Positions 10,987 through 56,703 of a DNA stretch of 64,000 nucleotides are shown one piece after another (positions within the stretch are counted from its first letter, which is position 1; each line of letters starts with the position of its first letter). The notes under the pieces were generated by a model, which made no database searches, had not been told where the DNA came from, and saw only the letters and a program-made list of their open reading frames with translations. The stretch comes from Serinibacter salmoneus (GTDB taxonomy: Bacteria > Actinomycetota > Actinomycetes > Actinomycetales > Beutenbergiaceae): positions 998,973 through 1,062,972 of the forward strand of contig NZ_PDJD01000001.1 of NCBI RefSeq assembly GCF_002563925.1, given 5' to 3'. The position numbers and the translations under genes are program-made.

Positions 10987-13224
10987 ATGGAGGGTCCCGA
11001 GATCACGTTCGCCGAGGCCGTCATCGACAACGGCCGCTTCGGCACCCGCACCGTCCGCTTCGAGACCGGCCGCCTGGCCAAGCAGGCCGCCGGTGCCGTG
11101 CTGGCCACGCTGGACGAGGAGACCGTGGTGCTGTCCACCACGACCGCCGGCAAGCACCCGCGCGAGGGCTTCGACTTCTTCCCGCTCACCGTGGACGTCG
11201 AGGAGCGCCAGTACGCCGCCGGGAAGATCCCCGGCTCCTTCTTCCGCCGCGAGGGTCGCCCCTCCACCGAGGCGATCCTGGCCTGCCGCCTGATCGACCG
11301 TCCGCTGCGCCCGCTGTTCGTCAAGGGCCTGCGCAACGAGGTCCAGGTCGTCGAGACCGTCCTGGCGATCCACCCGGACGACGCCTACGACGTGCTGGCG
11401 ATCAACGCCGCCTCCGCCTCCACCCAGATCTCCGGTCTGCCGTTCTCCGGCCCGGTCGGCGGGGTGCGCATCTCCTACATCGAGGGTGAGTGGGTCGCCT
11501 TCCCGCGTTACAGCGAGTCCGCGAAGGCCGTCTTCGAGATGGTCGTGGCCGGCCGCCGCGTCAAGGACGAGCAGGGCAACGACGACGTCGCGATCGCCAT
11601 GATCGAGGCCGAGGCCACCGTCAACGCCTGGAGCCTCATCAAGGAGCAGGGTGCCACCGCGCCCACCGAGGAGATCGTGGCACAGGGCCTGGAGGCCGCG
11701 AAGCCGTTCATCGCCGCCCTCGTGGACGCGCAGGCCGAACTCGCCTCGAAGGCCGCCAAGGAGGTGCGCAGCTTCCCGCTCTTCCCCGACTACGAGGACG
11801 ACGCCCTGGAGGCCATGCGCGCCCAGGTCGCCGAGGGCCTGGAGTCCGCCCTCTCGATCGCCGACAAGCAGGAGCGCGAGACGCGCCTGGACGAGGTCCG
11901 CGACGCCGCCATCGGCGCCCTGCAGGCCGGCTTCGACGGTCGCGAGAAGGAGCTGCACGCCGCCTACCGCGCTCTGACCAAGGCCGCCATCCGCCGTCGC
12001 ATCCTCACCGACGGCTTCCGCATCGACGGCCGCGGGCTGCGCGACATCCGCCCGCTGTCCGCCGAGGTCGAGGTGCTGCCCCGCGTGCACGGCTCCGCCC
12101 TGTTCGAGCGTGGCGAGACCCAGATCATGGGCGTCACCACGCTGAACATGCTCAAGATGGAGCAGCAGCTGGACACCCTGAGCCCGGTGACCCGCAAGCG
12201 CTACATGCACAACTACAACTTCCCGCCCTACTCCACCGGTGAGACCGGTCGCGTGGGCAGCCCCAAGCGCCGCGAGATCGGCCACGGCGCGCTCGCCGAG
12301 CGGGCCCTGGTGCCGGTGCTGCCGGGCCGCGAGGAGTTCCCCTACGCGATCCGTCAGGTCTCCGAGGCCCTCGGGTCCAACGGCTCCACCTCGATGGGTT
12401 CGGTGTGCGCCTCGACCCTGTCCATGCTGAACGCCGGTGTGCCGCTGCGCGCCCCGGTCGCCGGCATCGCGATGGGCCTGGTCTCGGACAACGTGGACGG
12501 GCAGATGCGCTACGCCGCGCTGACCGACATCCTCGGCGCCGAGGACGCCTTCGGCGACATGGACTTCAAGGTCGCCGGTACCCGCGAGTTCGTCACCGCC
12601 ATCCAGTTGGACACCAAGCTCGACGGCATCCCCGCCTCGGTGCTGGCCGGTGCGCTCTCGCAGGCCAAGGAGGCGCGTCTGACCATCCTGGACGTCATGG
12701 CCGAGGCCATCGACACCCCGGACGAGATGGCCGCCACCGCCCCGCGCGTGATCACGGTGCAGGTCCCGGTCGACAAGATCGGCGAGGTCATCGGCCCGAA
12801 GGGCAAGATGATCAACCAGATCCAGGAGGACACGGGCGCCGACATCTCCATCGAGGACGACGGCACCGTGTTCATCGGCGCCACCGACGGCCCGTCGGCG
12901 GAGGCCGCGCGGCAGGCGATCAACGCGATCGCCAACCCGCACATGCCCGAGGTGGGTGAGCGTTTCATCGGCACGGTCGTCAAGACCACCAGTTTCGGGG
13001 CGTTCATCTCCCTCACGCCGGGCAAGGACGGTCTGCTGCACATCAGCCAGATCCGTCGACTCGTGGGCGGCAAGCGCGTGGAGAGCGTGGAGGACGTGCT
13101 CTCCGTGGGTCAGAAGGTGCAGGTCGAGCTCGCCGAGATCGACAACCGCGGCAAGCTCTCGCTGCACGCGGTCATCGACGAGGACGAGAAGGACTCCGCC
13201 GAGCCCGCAGGCGCGGAGGCCTGA
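10987..13224 (+). CDS. pnp: Polyribonucleotide nucleotidyltransferase (PNPase)
   Basis: 745 aa. A phosphorolytic 3'-5' exoribonuclease and RNA-tailing enzyme of the degradosome. Two RNase PH domains flank a helical linker. The first has [21 protein letters not shown]; the second carries [23 protein letters not shown] and [22 protein letters not shown] domain (about 592-655, GKMINQIQ loop) and an S1 domain (about 656-728) end the protein. The ATG at 10987 follows GAAGGAGGGC. The leader of 243 nt carries two hairpins. The M16 peptidase gene begins 3 nt after the stop. Confidence 0.98.
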
Positions 13225-17376: not shown

Positions 17377-19062
17377 ATGTCCCACCCACATCCCGATCTC
17401 CCGCTCCCGCCGCCGCTGCCCGCGGGCGGCCTGCGGATCATCCCGCTCGGCGGCCTCGGGGAGGTCGGTCGCAACATGGCCGTGCTGGAGTACGACGGCC
17501 GCCTCCTGATCATCGACTGCGGCGTGCTCTTCCCGGAGGACCACCAGCCCGGGGTGGACCTGATCCTCCCGGACTTCTCCGCGATCGAGGACCGGCTCGA
17601 CGACATCGACGCACTCGTCCTCACCCACGGTCACGAGGACCACATCGGGGCCGTCCCCTATCTGCTGAAGCTCCGCGGGGACATCCCCGTGATCGGCTCC
17701 CGGCTCACGCTGGCCTTCCTCTCGGCGAAGCTGAGGGAGCACCGCATCACGCCGGTGCTCCGCCAGGTCGCGGAGGACGACACCCTCAAGGTCGGCAACT
17801 TCGACCTGGAGTTCGTGGCCGTCAACCACTCCATCCCGGACGCGCTCGCGGTGGCCGTGACCACCGGCGCCGGCACGGTGCTGCACACCGGTGACTTCAA
17901 GATGGACCAGCTCCCGCTGGACGGCCGGATCACCGACCTGCGGGCCTTCGCCCGGCTGGGGGAGAAGGGCGTCGACCTGTTCATGGTCGACTCCACCAAC
18001 GCCGAGGTCCCCGGGTTCACCACCGCCGAGGCCGAGATCGGCCCCGTGCTGGAGAACGTGTTCGCCGCGGCGACCGGTCGCCTGGTCGTGGCCAGTTTCT
18101 CCTCCCATGTGCACCGCGTGCAGCAGGTCATCGACGCCGCCTGGGCGAATGACCGCAAGGTCGCGCTGGTGGGCCGCTCGATGGTGCGCAACATGACGAT
18201 CGCCGCCGAGTTGGGCTACCTGACGGTGCCCGAGGGCGTGCTGGTGGACGTCAAGCGCATCGACAACTACCCGCCGCACGAGGTCGTGCTGATGTGCACC
18301 GGCTCCCAGGGTGAGCCGATGGCCGCCCTGTCCCGGATCGCGAACAAGGACCACCGGGTCGAGGTGGGCCCCGGCGACACCGTCGTGTTGGCCTCCTCGC
18401 TGATCCCCGGCAACGAGAACGCGGTCTACCGCGTGATCAACGGCCTGATGCGCCTGGGCGCCCAGGTGGTGCACCAGGGCAACGCCCGGGTGCACGTGTC
18501 CGGGCATGCCAGCGCCGGCGAGCTCCTGTACTGCTACAACATCCTGCGGCCGCGCAACGTGATGCCGGTGCACGGTGAGATCCGCCATCTCGTGGCCAAC
18601 GGCGCGCTGGCGGTCAAGACCGGGGTCGAGGCCAACCGTGTGGTGCTCGCCGAGGACGGCGTGGTGGTGGACCTCGTGGACGGGCGCGCCAAGATCGTGG
18701 GCGCCGTGCCGTGCGGGTACGTGTACGTGGACGGGTCCTCGATCGGTGAGATCGACGAGTCGGACCTGAAGGACCGGCGCATCCTGTCCGAGGAGGGCTT
18801 CATCTCCGTGTTCGCGGTGGTGGACTCCTCCTCGGGCACCATCGTGGCCGGGCCCCAGATCCACGCCCGCGGGTTGGCCGAGAGCGACGAGGTGCTCAGC
18901 AACGTGGTGCCGCAGGCACGTGATGCCCTCGCGCAGGCGCTCGGCGAGGGCTCGGTCGACTCCCACCAGTTGCAGCAGGTGCTGCGTCGGGTCGTGGGCC
19001 GGTGGGCCGGGACACGGCTGAAGCGTCGCCCGATGATCATCCCTGTGGTGGTCGTCACCTGA
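17377..19062 (+). CDS. rnj: Ribonuclease J
   Basis: 561 aa. Metallo-beta-lactamase ribonuclease with endonuclease and 5'-3' exonuclease activity, a main RNA-decay enzyme in actinobacteria. The zinc motif is LTHGHEDHIGA (about residues 82-92). The beta-CASP domain holds VASFSSHVHRVQQ and the GSQGEP loop. The later VSGHASAGEL and MPVHGE motifs complete the active site. The C-terminal domain ends with RRPMIIPVVV-like residues. The ATG follows GAAGAAGGAAT. The dapA-rnj-ftsK order is conserved in the phylum. Confidence 0.97.
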   Translation: MSHPHPDLPLPPPLPAGGLRIIPLGGLGEVGRNMAVLEYDGRLLIIDCGVLFPEDHQPGVDLILPDFSAIEDRLDDIDALVLTHGHEDHIGAVPYLLKLRGDIPVIGSRLTLAFLSAKLREHRITPVLRQVAEDDTLKVGNFDLEFVAVNHSIPDALAVAVTTGAGTVLHTGDFKMDQLPLDGRITDLRAFARLGEKGVDLFMVDSTNAEVPGFTTAEAEIGPVLENVFAAATGRLVVASFSSHVHRVQQVIDAAWANDRKVALVGRSMVRNMTIAAELGYLTVPEGVLVDVKRIDNYPPHEVVLMCTGSQGEPMAALSRIANKDHRVEVGPGDTVVLASSLIPGNENAVYRVINGLMRLGAQVVHQGNARVHVSGHASAGELLYCYNILRPRNVMPVHGEIRHLVANGALAVKTGVEANRVVLAEDGVVVDLVDGRAKIVGAVPCGYVYVDGSSIGEIDESDLKDRRILSEEGFISVFAVVDSSSGTIVAGPQIHARGLAESDEVLSNVVPQARDALAQALGEGSVDSHQLQQVLRRVVGRWAGTRLKRRPMIIPVVVVT

Positions 19063-31685: not shown

Positions 31686-32468
31686 ATGGCCGGCGCTCGG
31701 AGATTCTCTGCGCGCGGTAACCGCGCGGACGATCATGACCGGGAGATCGGCGCGTCGGGACCGGGGTCAGACGACCTCGGGACCGACCGAGACGGCGCGG
31801 ACCAGGTGATCGCTGACCAGGCGAGCCCGGGCCGGGTGATCGCTGACAAGGCGAGCGCTGATGAGACGAGCGCTGATGATCGCGCTCGCCGCCGCACTCG
31901 ACGCCGGGGGAGAGGGTACGCACCCGAACCCCCGGCGTCGGGCGCCGCCGCTCAGGACGCCGAAGCCGACCAGGAGCAGGTCGCCCGCACGATTGCACTG
32001 CGCCAGTTGGCGGGGATGCCGCGCTCCCGCGCTCAACTCGCCGAGGCGATGGCGCGCAAGGACGTGCCCGAGGACGTCACCGAGAAGGTGCTGGACAGAC
32101 TCGAGGACGTCGGCCTGGTGGACGACGCCGAGTACGCCGCGATGCTGGTGCGCAGCAAGCATGCCGACCGGGGGCTCGGCCGTCGTGCGCTGGCGCACGA
32201 ACTGCAGCGCAAGGGCATCGACCAGGAGGTCGCCCAGGAGGCGCTGGCGAGCGTGGGGCCGGAGGAGGAGGAGCGAGTTGCGCGAGAACTGGTGCGCAAG
32301 CGCGTCCGCGCCACCATCGGCCTCGAGCATGACAAACGTGTGCGTCGCATCGTTGGGATGCTCGCGCGCAAGGGCTACGGTGCCGGGCTTGCCTACCGGT
32401 TGGTGTCGGAGGAGTTGTCAGCGGAGGCACCGGAGGCGGCCGACATGCCGCTGGACCCCTTCGATTGA
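31686..32468 (+). CDS. recX: Regulatory protein RecX
   Basis: 260 aa. Binds and restrains RecA filaments. The three-helix RecX repeats occupy about residues 97-245: ALRQLAGMPRSRAQLAEAM, VLDRLEDVGLVDDAEYAAML and the GLGRRALAHELQRKGI segment. The first 95 residues are a charged, repetitive extension (two copies of VIADxAS, 30 nt apart in the DNA), unlike the core and probably disordered; a later start cannot be excluded. It is cotranscribed with recA. Confidence 0.93.
   Translation: MAGARRFSARGNRADDHDREIGASGPGSDDLGTDRDGADQVIADQASPGRVIADKASADETSADDRARRRTRRRGRGYAPEPPASGAAAQDAEADQEQVARTIALRQLAGMPRSRAQLAEAMARKDVPEDVTEKVLDRLEDVGLVDDAEYAAMLVRSKHADRGLGRRALAHELQRKGIDQEVAQEALASVGPEEEERVARELVRKRVRATIGLEHDKRVRRIVGMLARKGYGAGLAYRLVSEELSAEAPEAADMPLDPFD
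31806..31856 (+). repeat. 30-bp tandem repeat in the recX 5' part
   Basis: Near-identical 21-mers at 31806-31826 and 31836-31856 (TGATCGCTGAC then AGGCGAGC, one base different), period 30 bp, so 10 codons per unit. Further degenerate GAGCGCTGATGA copies follow to about 31880. Confidence 0.75.
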
Positions 32469-32890
32469 TCGATCCCACTGGCTGGCATCGCGTCTACCTG
32501 AATCTCGCCGACCGTCGTCGAGTGGGTGCTTGCGCACGCGAGTCTTCGCCGAACGTGCGGTTGCGCACGCGAGTCTTCGTCGAGTGGGTGCTTGCGCAGC
32601 GTCGGCTTGCGTGAACTCGGCGCAACAGCACGCTCGGCGGGGAGATGCTGGCGCGCGGCGGCGCAACAGCACGCTCGGCGCAGGGATAGCGTCGGTCAGT
32701 TCGCCGAACGTGCGGTTGCGCACGCGAGTCTTCGTCGAGCGGGTGCTTGCGCAGCGTCGGCTTGCGTGAACTCGGCGCAACAGCACGCTCGGCGGGGGGA
32801 TGCTGGCGCGCTGCGGCGCAACGGCACGCTCGGTGCGCGCGGGTCGGCGCAACGGCACGTTCGGCGCACCGGGTGGGCTGCGCACGCGAA
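32469..32890. repeat. Array of inverted and direct repeats between recX and gluD
   Basis: This gene-free region (476 bp to 32944) carries seven copies of a 21-bp unit. Two are in the form CGCCGAACGTGCGGTTGCGC (from 32547 and 32702). Five are in the opposite orientation, core GCGCAACAGCACGCTCGGC or variants (units at 32619-32639, 32660-32680, 32774-32794, 32815-32835, 32846-32866). On a larger scale 32546-32678 is repeated at 32701-32833 (155-bp period, about 4 differences in 133 bp). TTGCGCACGCGAGTCTTCG also recurs (32530, 32561, 32716). The layout resembles REP/BIME-type extragenic palindromes at convergent gene ends. Confidence 0.85.
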
Positions 32891-32918
32891 GGGCCGGGCA
32901 CCCAGCGGTGCCCGGCCC
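32891..32918. terminator. Terminator hairpin after gluD (and facing recX)
   Basis: Perfect 12-bp arms GGGCCGGGCACC (32891-32902) and GGTGCCCGGCCC (32907-32918), loop CAGC. It lies 27 bp from the gluD stop on the minus strand. No U-tract; on the minus strand the sequence TTCGCG follows. Confidence 0.75.
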
Positions 32919-32944
32919 TCCGGTGCGTCTCGAGGAGTCGGGGC

Positions 32945-33820
32945 TCAGGCCTTCGCCTTCTCCTCGATCTCCTCCTGGACGTCCGCATCCGGTGCGTGCA
33001 CCGGGGCCGCGGTCCGCGAGGACAGCCGCTTCGCCACGTAGTCTGCGAGCTTCGTCAGCATCCAGTTCAGCAGGATGAAGATCAGCGCCGCCACGATGAG
33101 CGCCTGCAGCATGTTGCCGTTGCCCGAGCCGTACAGGCGGGACATGAACAGCAACTCGTTGTAGGTCACCCAGGAGCCCAGCGCCGAGTCCTTGAGGATC
33201 ACGACGAACTGGGAGACGAGGGAGGGCAGCATGGCGATCAGTGCCTGGGGGAGTTCCACCAGCCGCAGCGACTTGGAGTGCGTCATCCCGATCGCTGCCG
33301 CGGCCTCCCGCTGTCCCTTCGGGAGCCCGAACACGCCGGAGCGCACGAGCTCGGCGATCACGGAACCGTTGTACAGGGTCAGCGCCAGCACCACGGCCAC
33401 CAGCGGCACCGTGTTGGGGTCGAAGGTCTGCGCGTACCCGAAGCCGAGCCAGAAGGCCACCATCATGATCAGCACGGGCACGGCGCGGAAGAACTCCACC
33501 ACGATGCCGCTGATCCAGCGCAGTGGCGCGATGGTCGTGAGGCGACCCAGCCCGAACACGATCCCGAAGAGCATCGAGAACACGATGGACAACGCCGCCG
33601 CGATCAACGTGTTGCGCAGGCCGGGGATGAGGAAGTTCATCCAGGCGTTCGCGGTGAACATCGAGGTCCACCGATCGGCCTCGAGCTGACCGGTCTGCCC
33701 GAAGCGGATCAGCACCAGGACGGCGATCCCGATGACCACGATCGCCCCGACGATGTTGACGATGACCATGTTGCGCCGGCCCTTGGGGCCCGGCGCGTCG
33801 AAGAGGACCTGTGCGCTCAT
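32945..33820 (-). CDS. gluD: Glutamate-type ABC transporter permease (GluD-like)
   Basis: 291 aa. Inner-membrane permease of a polar amino acid importer. After a short cytoplasmic N-terminus come several hydrophobic segments: about 25-45, 75-100, 115-135, 150-170, 240-265. The EAA loop is GLPKGQREAAAAIGMTHSKS, which contacts the ATPase. A charged tail ends the protein. The ATG overlaps the gluC stop by four bases. The gene order gluA-gluB-gluC-gluD matches the Corynebacterium glutamate uptake operon; specificity is inferred from order and family. Confidence 0.9.
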   Translation of the reverse strand: MSAQVLFDAPGPKGRRNMVIVNIVGAIVVIGIAVLVLIRFGQTGQLEADRWTSMFTANAWMNFLIPGLRNTLIAAALSIVFSMLFGIVFGLGRLTTIAPLRWISGIVVEFFRAVPVLIMMVAFWLGFGYAQTFDPNTVPLVAVVLALTLYNGSVIAELVRSGVFGLPKGQREAAAAIGMTHSKSLRLVELPQALIAMLPSLVSQFVVILKDSALGSWVTYNELLFMSRLYGSGNGNMLQALIVAALIFILLNWMLTKLADYVAKRLSSRTAAPVHAPDADVQEEIEEKAKA

Positions 33821-56663: not shown

Positions 56664-56703
56664 TATCGTGGAGGAAAGTGGAGTATCGTGGAGGAAGGCG
56701 GAG
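56664..56703 (+). promoter_or_regulatory. mraZ operator: four direct repeats GTGGAG with 10-bp period
   Basis: GTGGAG at 56668, 56678 and 56688 and GCGGAG at 56698 form four boxes with exact 10-bp spacing, the arrangement bound by MraZ rings upstream of dcw clusters. Two TATCGT hexamers (56664-56669, 56684-56689) match TAnnnT and overlap the boxes, so MraZ binding would cover the promoter and give autorepression. Confidence 0.85.

Follow-up and report, generated by a model that had tools for sequence, protein, structure and literature searches.

On balance, the array of short repeats beside recX in the window, the whole 64,000-nucleotide stretch of Serinibacter salmoneus DNA analysed here, probably belongs to a non-autonomous family of miniature repeats of the REP, REPIN and BIME kind that forms part of an actinobacterial clan. 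The family is dispersed, is built on a pair of fixed geometry, has been amplified locally, lies at gene ends and has related pairs in other genomes.

Seven copies of GCGCAACNGCACGNTCGGCG with zero or one mismatch span positions 32547-32866, and a search of the whole window at up to three mismatches returned eight matches, one of them a stray at 18186, against a mean of 0.61 and a maximum of 3 in the shuffled window. The seven copies in both orientations reported in the initial annotation are thus confirmed, with the unit taken here as 20 bp. With three diverged units recognised by a weight matrix, the gap between recX and a permease gene holds ten 20-bp units, which read from left to right as three minus, two plus, two minus and three plus; an eleventh matrix match, far off at 12294 and inside a gene, is left out of the unit counts. 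Units are classed as type B when they carry A at position 11 and as type A when they carry any other base. The array opens with a diverged A-type unit at 32516-32535 (-, weight matrix) and a B-type unit at 32547-32566 (-, GCGCAACNGCACGNTCGGCG search and weight matrix), followed by an unstranded 62-bp head-to-head module at 32578-32639 (covariance model E 1e-14), in which an A-type left arm (32578-32597, -) is joined through a 22-bp centre to a B-type right arm (32620-32639, +, weight matrix). Two further B-type units, at 32661-32680 (+) and 32702-32721 (-), both found by the search and the matrix, precede a second unstranded module at 32733-32794 (E 1.2e-15), with an A-type left arm at 32733-32752 (-), a 22-bp centre and a B-type right arm at 32775-32794 (+, weight matrix). 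Two B-type units found by both methods, at 32816-32835 and 32847-32866 (both +), close the array.

A block of 137 nt is present twice, at 32545-32681 and 32700-32836 (strand not applicable), the copies being 96% identical and 155 bp apart; of the 133-bp block with about four changes described initially, the 155-bp distance stands, while the block is longer and slightly more changed. Tandem Repeats Finder (TRF) reports a period of 155, 1.9 copies and 97% matches for the array. Because the unit steps of 31, 42, 41 and 41 add up to the 155-bp offset, the duplication is a copied piece of the array. On the left, an ORF directly after recA that matches RecX models ends at 32468 (+), with a best E of 2e-58, yet under the curated cut-off of each listed model; on the right, a polar-amino-acid ABC permease gene, which exceeds the cut-off of HEQRo_perm_3TM only, ends at 32945 (-). 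The flanks are convergent, as first described, and a RecX-like ORF does follow recA, but the name gluD for the permease is no more than plausible. At positions 32887-32922 a terminator-like 16-bp stem with a 4-nt loop separates the array from the stop codon of the permease gene, and elsewhere in the window TATCGTGGAGGAAAGCGGAG, a 20-bp direct repeat, occurs in two copies at 56664-56703.

The possibility, raised at the outset, that the unit is confined to this one locus proved false: the GCGCAACNGCACGNTCGGCG 20-mer at up to two mismatches has 102 matches in the 3.27-Mb chromosome, and the reversed pattern has 0. A covariance model built from 41 nonredundant 62-bp pairs recovers, from 150 scored candidates and with four weak matches excluded, at least 66 head-to-head modules at 51 loci of the genome, spread at 1 to 7 loci per tenth of the chromosome, and the whole-genome search therefore bears out a high-copy dispersed family. 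Its geometry was measured in a sample comprising the window and 36 stretches around matches, in which 183 units with a matrix score of at least 13 fall into 44 arrays; L233 and L238 were excluded, as neither gave an array of at least two units at the matrix threshold. Each of the 44 arrays contains the basic element, a 62-bp head-to-head pair in which two 20-bp arms flank a 22-bp centre; in seven arrays the pair stands alone, and 34 have same-orientation steps. Arrays of the family also carry duplicated blocks comparable to the 155-bp one in the window. The start-to-start distance is exactly 42 bp in 56 of 58 head-to-head pairs, and 49 of 51 same-orientation steps measure 31 or 32 bp. The unit consensus has the ends GCGCAA and TCGGCG, the conserved arm ends are GC..AA and CGYTCGGCG, and the centres differ between module copies. 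Adjacent tandem units are more similar than random pairs (17.80 versus 16.36 of 20), also at variable positions alone (agreement 0.824 versus 0.696), and their spacers are likewise more alike, a likeness of the kind that local duplication would give.

The genome also contains another repeat family, whose 22-bp unit starts CTGCAGAACCNCCTCG and forms tandem and inverted arrays (G000:C1:300001-700000, L211-L230), with examples at L212:10011-10193, L213:8815-8899 and L230:8595-8710. At up to two mismatches, 400 kb contain 52 such units, ten of which fall within called genes, against 6 for the reversed control, and arrays of at least two units occupy six convergent and five unidirectional gaps. An 18-bp tandem repeat (six codons) at L223:10210-10543 is probably coding and is unrelated to the 62-bp element.

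The placement of the 62-bp family was examined relative to genes. In 464 kb of contiguous sequence, a simple gene caller leaves 50 of the 56 unit matches outside genes, and the six within them stand singly and score low, from 13.5 to 15.7. Flanking genes were called on both sides of 49 arrays, one further array being set aside for want of a gene call on its left; of the 49, 21 lie in convergent, 22 in unidirectional and 6 in divergent gaps, compared with 59, 287 and 59 among 405 background gaps, an enrichment in convergent gaps (21/49 versus 59/405) with p 1.6e-6. The median distance from array to gene 3' end is 37 bp, with 36 of 56 within 50 bp, and to gene 5' end 78 bp, with 8 of 31 within 50 bp. 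Closeness to 3' ends speaks for an explanation that we consider unlikely, though deserving of weight, namely that selection at gene ends keeps the modules as hairpins that terminate transcription in both directions or form mRNA 3' ends, their shared sequence reflecting a recognition factor. Against it, six of the 49 arrays sit between divergent genes, a common sequence across the genome is not required of terminators, and the permease has its own hairpin at 32887-32922; moreover, separate hairpins are similarly common at 3'-end flanks beside arrays (9/55) and in array-free gaps (11/57).

The two arms of a pair are preferentially of unlike type. An A and a B arm are combined in 45 of 58 head-to-head pairs, where 29.1 are expected and duplicated modules are counted repeatedly; among the 41 nonredundant modules, 30 unite the two types (expected 20.7, p 0.004). 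Both units are of type B in 37 of 51 same-orientation steps. The complementarity of the arms in 30 A/B pairs is 0.720, below the 0.743 obtained with right arms shuffled; standard pairs fill 78.7% of arm cells in S. salmoneus modules versus 79.9% after shuffling, and these modules have no arm covariation (score 0.071 versus 0.084 shuffled), which again tells against selected terminator hairpins. The whole 62-bp module folds better than shuffled sequence, with z about -3, a point in favour of that explanation, and the centre, counted with wobble on one strand, pairs at 0.603 versus 0.548 shuffled (p 0.011), positions c1 and c3 pairing above the shuffled level. The initial idea that opposed units pair is thus borne out only in part for S. 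salmoneus, whereas the arms of Sediminihabitans luteus covary.

Arms that retain their consensus and not their pairing, together with the strict 31- and 42-bp steps, would suit a different function, in which the units are duplex sites for a putative DNA-binding protein, phased at three and four helical turns, and the bound protein would organise gene ends or the chromosome. This reading is decidedly doubtful. Outer tandem units keep the conserved columns at 97% (0.973), also where the spacers have diverged, which is slightly below the 99% (0.994) of paired arms, and a decayed unit at the next step is found at just 4 of 78 array ends (control 0 of 312), the latter in its favour; both the conservation and the array-end figures are biased, since the units themselves were found by the matrix. 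Furthermore, duplication alone also yields fixed steps, and no binding protein is known.

Movement of the array by a RAYT-type transposase, as the initial annotation proposed, finds little in these genomes to sustain it. A strict REP family that a RAYT (Y1) enzyme mobilises would agree with the overall architecture, but we regard it as highly improbable: PF01797 (Y1_Tnp), for which the positive control gave matches in E. coli and four other genomes, has no match in the single-contig, 100%-complete S. salmoneus genome or in that of S. luteus, and among ten element-bearing genomes, S. salmoneus included, it matches in G001 only, while the unit consensus has no GTAG end. A RAYT could, however, have been lost after the element had spread. 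A Pfam scan of ten proteins, eight of them encoded by genes between two arrays, revealed no transposase and left two without a family; the eight genes are metabolic, transport-related or without family.

Related elements were sought in 58 relatives, all from outside the genus. The unit pattern has 0 to 7 matches per genome there, versus 100 here, and the covariance model at E<=0.01 has matches in 20 of the 58, with at least five in 7 genomes and a single one in 12; a decoy with permuted stem pairs (one permutation, run without a positive control) has 0 matches in 59 genomes, S. salmoneus among them. The search of relatives that had been recommended thus uncovers diverged related pairs in other genera. 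Twenty loci, taken from the best matches rather than at random, have in common the 62-bp layout and outer GCCGARC-type ends, and nearly all are near-perfect hairpins; 14 copies from other genera fold with a mean z of -9.5. At least 19 intergenic pairs occur in S. luteus (Cellulomonadaceae), and like those of S. salmoneus they have 20-bp arms with ends GC..AA and TCGGC, a start-to-start distance of 43 or 42 bp and an intergenic position. Unlike them, they have the middle GTTG, form near-perfect covarying hairpins and show no tandem extension in the 19 pairs. The covariation of their arms, in 17 aligned pairs of which two rows represent a second subfamily, is reached in score by 0 of 500 shuffles, and the pairs fold with z about -8. 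These covarying arms and stable hairpins favour a role at RNA 3' ends, an explanation that is weakened by the absent covariation in S. salmoneus and the similar frequency of separate hairpins beside arrays and in array-free gaps, and weakened least for S. luteus.

In model-free surveys of 400 kb, the strong inverted repeats that have GCCGARC arms number 5 of 19 in G021, 7 of 36 in G031, 3 of 36 in G000, and none of 25 in G002. A degenerate pair pattern run against the GTDB collection, in which the source genome is possibly masked, matched one locus, in S. luteus, and the exact head-to-head pattern, run on 396 genomes of the order including S. salmoneus, matched elsewhere only in G378, at an unrelated palindrome. 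No empty site was seen in 400 kb of three relatives, nor an adjacent orthologous gap. The tsaE-tsaB gap carries an element in both S. salmoneus (L035:2031-2155) and S. luteus (L092:1501-1563), an agreement as compatible with retention or function as with chance, and two further elements, from other genera, lie next to relatives of genes found beside arrays in S. salmoneus (L147/L045 and L135/L062). At L138 and L139 (contigs C56 and C201 of G052) the contigs stop at or just past the hairpin, so that these elements may cause breaks in draft assemblies and be undercounted there. In G031, longer hairpins ending GACGGCCCGTCC (L161:11844, L164:8830 and L155:11833) are possibly another hairpin family.

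Several other identities were considered. A CRISPR or a coding tandem repeat is ruled out because the 31-bp step is not a multiple of 3, the units lie in both orientations and the site is intergenic, and integron attC-like sites, judged by their general features, were dropped, as the genes around the copies are of housekeeping type and the obligatory pair has the opposite orientation. Rfam gave only sub-gathering matches, with nothing above the gathering score, for window positions 32000-33400 and 17 loci, and positions 32500-32900 were unmatched in plasmid and phage collections, where short diverged copies would escape.

Comparison with known repeats places the element close to REPs without assigning it to a described group. 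The main text of one REP survey (PMC3733652), which draws mainly on Proteobacteria, describes REPs as short repeats scattered mostly outside genes in head-to-head dimers, many of them heterodimers, and situated near the 3' ends of genes, in convergent or unidirectional gaps; it describes the CGTC REPs as lacking a known dedicated transposase and the dimers' preference for unlike partners as unexplained, and the words actinobacter, Streptomyces, Mycobacterium, Frankia and Nocardi are absent from that text. With the GTAG and CGTC REPs, as portrayed there, the S. salmoneus element shares head-to-head dimers, heterodimer preference and gene-end placement; it differs in that the palindrome seen is the 62-bp pair and not each unit, and in that units additionally lie head-to-tail at 31-32 bp. 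It differs also in its consensus, which lacks a terminal GTAG or CGTC tag, the 26 of 183 units with A at position 18 being a minority that reads CGTCG on the opposite strand. In REPINs, the copied unit consists of two inverted short sequences around a spacer. The S. salmoneus pair likewise has inverted short sequences flanking a spacer, but no RAYT was found, its arms are of different type and its centre varies. Enterobacterial BIMEs, in the account that passages of PMC2817692 give, share mosaic arrays of opposed, regularly spaced units of two kinds, and differ, as do RAYT-linked REPs, in that no RAYT was found here. The element behaves like a REPIN or BIME, but since its consensus lacks the tag and a cognate Y1 transposase was not found in the genome, we file it under neither the GTAG/CGTC superfamilies nor the RAYT systems. 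A literature search of titles and abstract openings in open-licence papers returned no actinobacterial family of such repeats. The REP-like character proposed initially is supported: the units are scattered through the genome, lie between genes and form head-to-head pairs as well as tandem runs, 21 of 49 arrays occupy convergent gaps, and other genera have diverged relatives of the family.

For the favoured miniature repeat family, we propose that the pair is copied in trans by an enzyme that is not a Y1/RAYT transposase and that recognises the conserved ends of the arms, GC..AA and CGYTCGGCG, either as a folded single strand or as a duplex. Copies would persist where they are least harmful, beside stop codons, and arrays would then lengthen through slippage or unequal recombination. 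The pair is a nearly perfect hairpin in the relatives, while the S. salmoneus arms have diverged into two types, A and B, whose middle is mismatched, and by analogy with REP heterodimers, for which PMC3733652 offers the idea in its main text, the mismatch may guard the pair from hairpin-cleaving nucleases. Any influence on supercoiling or on the 3' ends of RNAs would be a by-product. Besides the shared element in the tsaE-tsaB gap, two observations sit less easily with copying: the 97% column conservation of outer tandem units fits selection on each unit, and the variable centres are unlike a simple transposon. It is conceivable, if rather improbable, that a hairpin element became helically phased duplex recognition arrays bound by a putative gene-end-organising protein, a reading that draws on arms without covariation, on pairing below the shuffled level and on a recognition sequence kept at three- and four-turn spacing; if it were true, the second family, at 22-bp (about two-turn) steps, would be a parallel case.

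The REP families known best are linked to RAYT transposases. An actinobacterial clan that spans genera, keeps a fixed geometry and gives no Y1 match in nine of ten genomes examined is a place to seek another copying enzyme, and the preference of REP dimers for unlike partners becomes testable by setting the covarying pairs of S. luteus against the A/B pairs of S. salmoneus.
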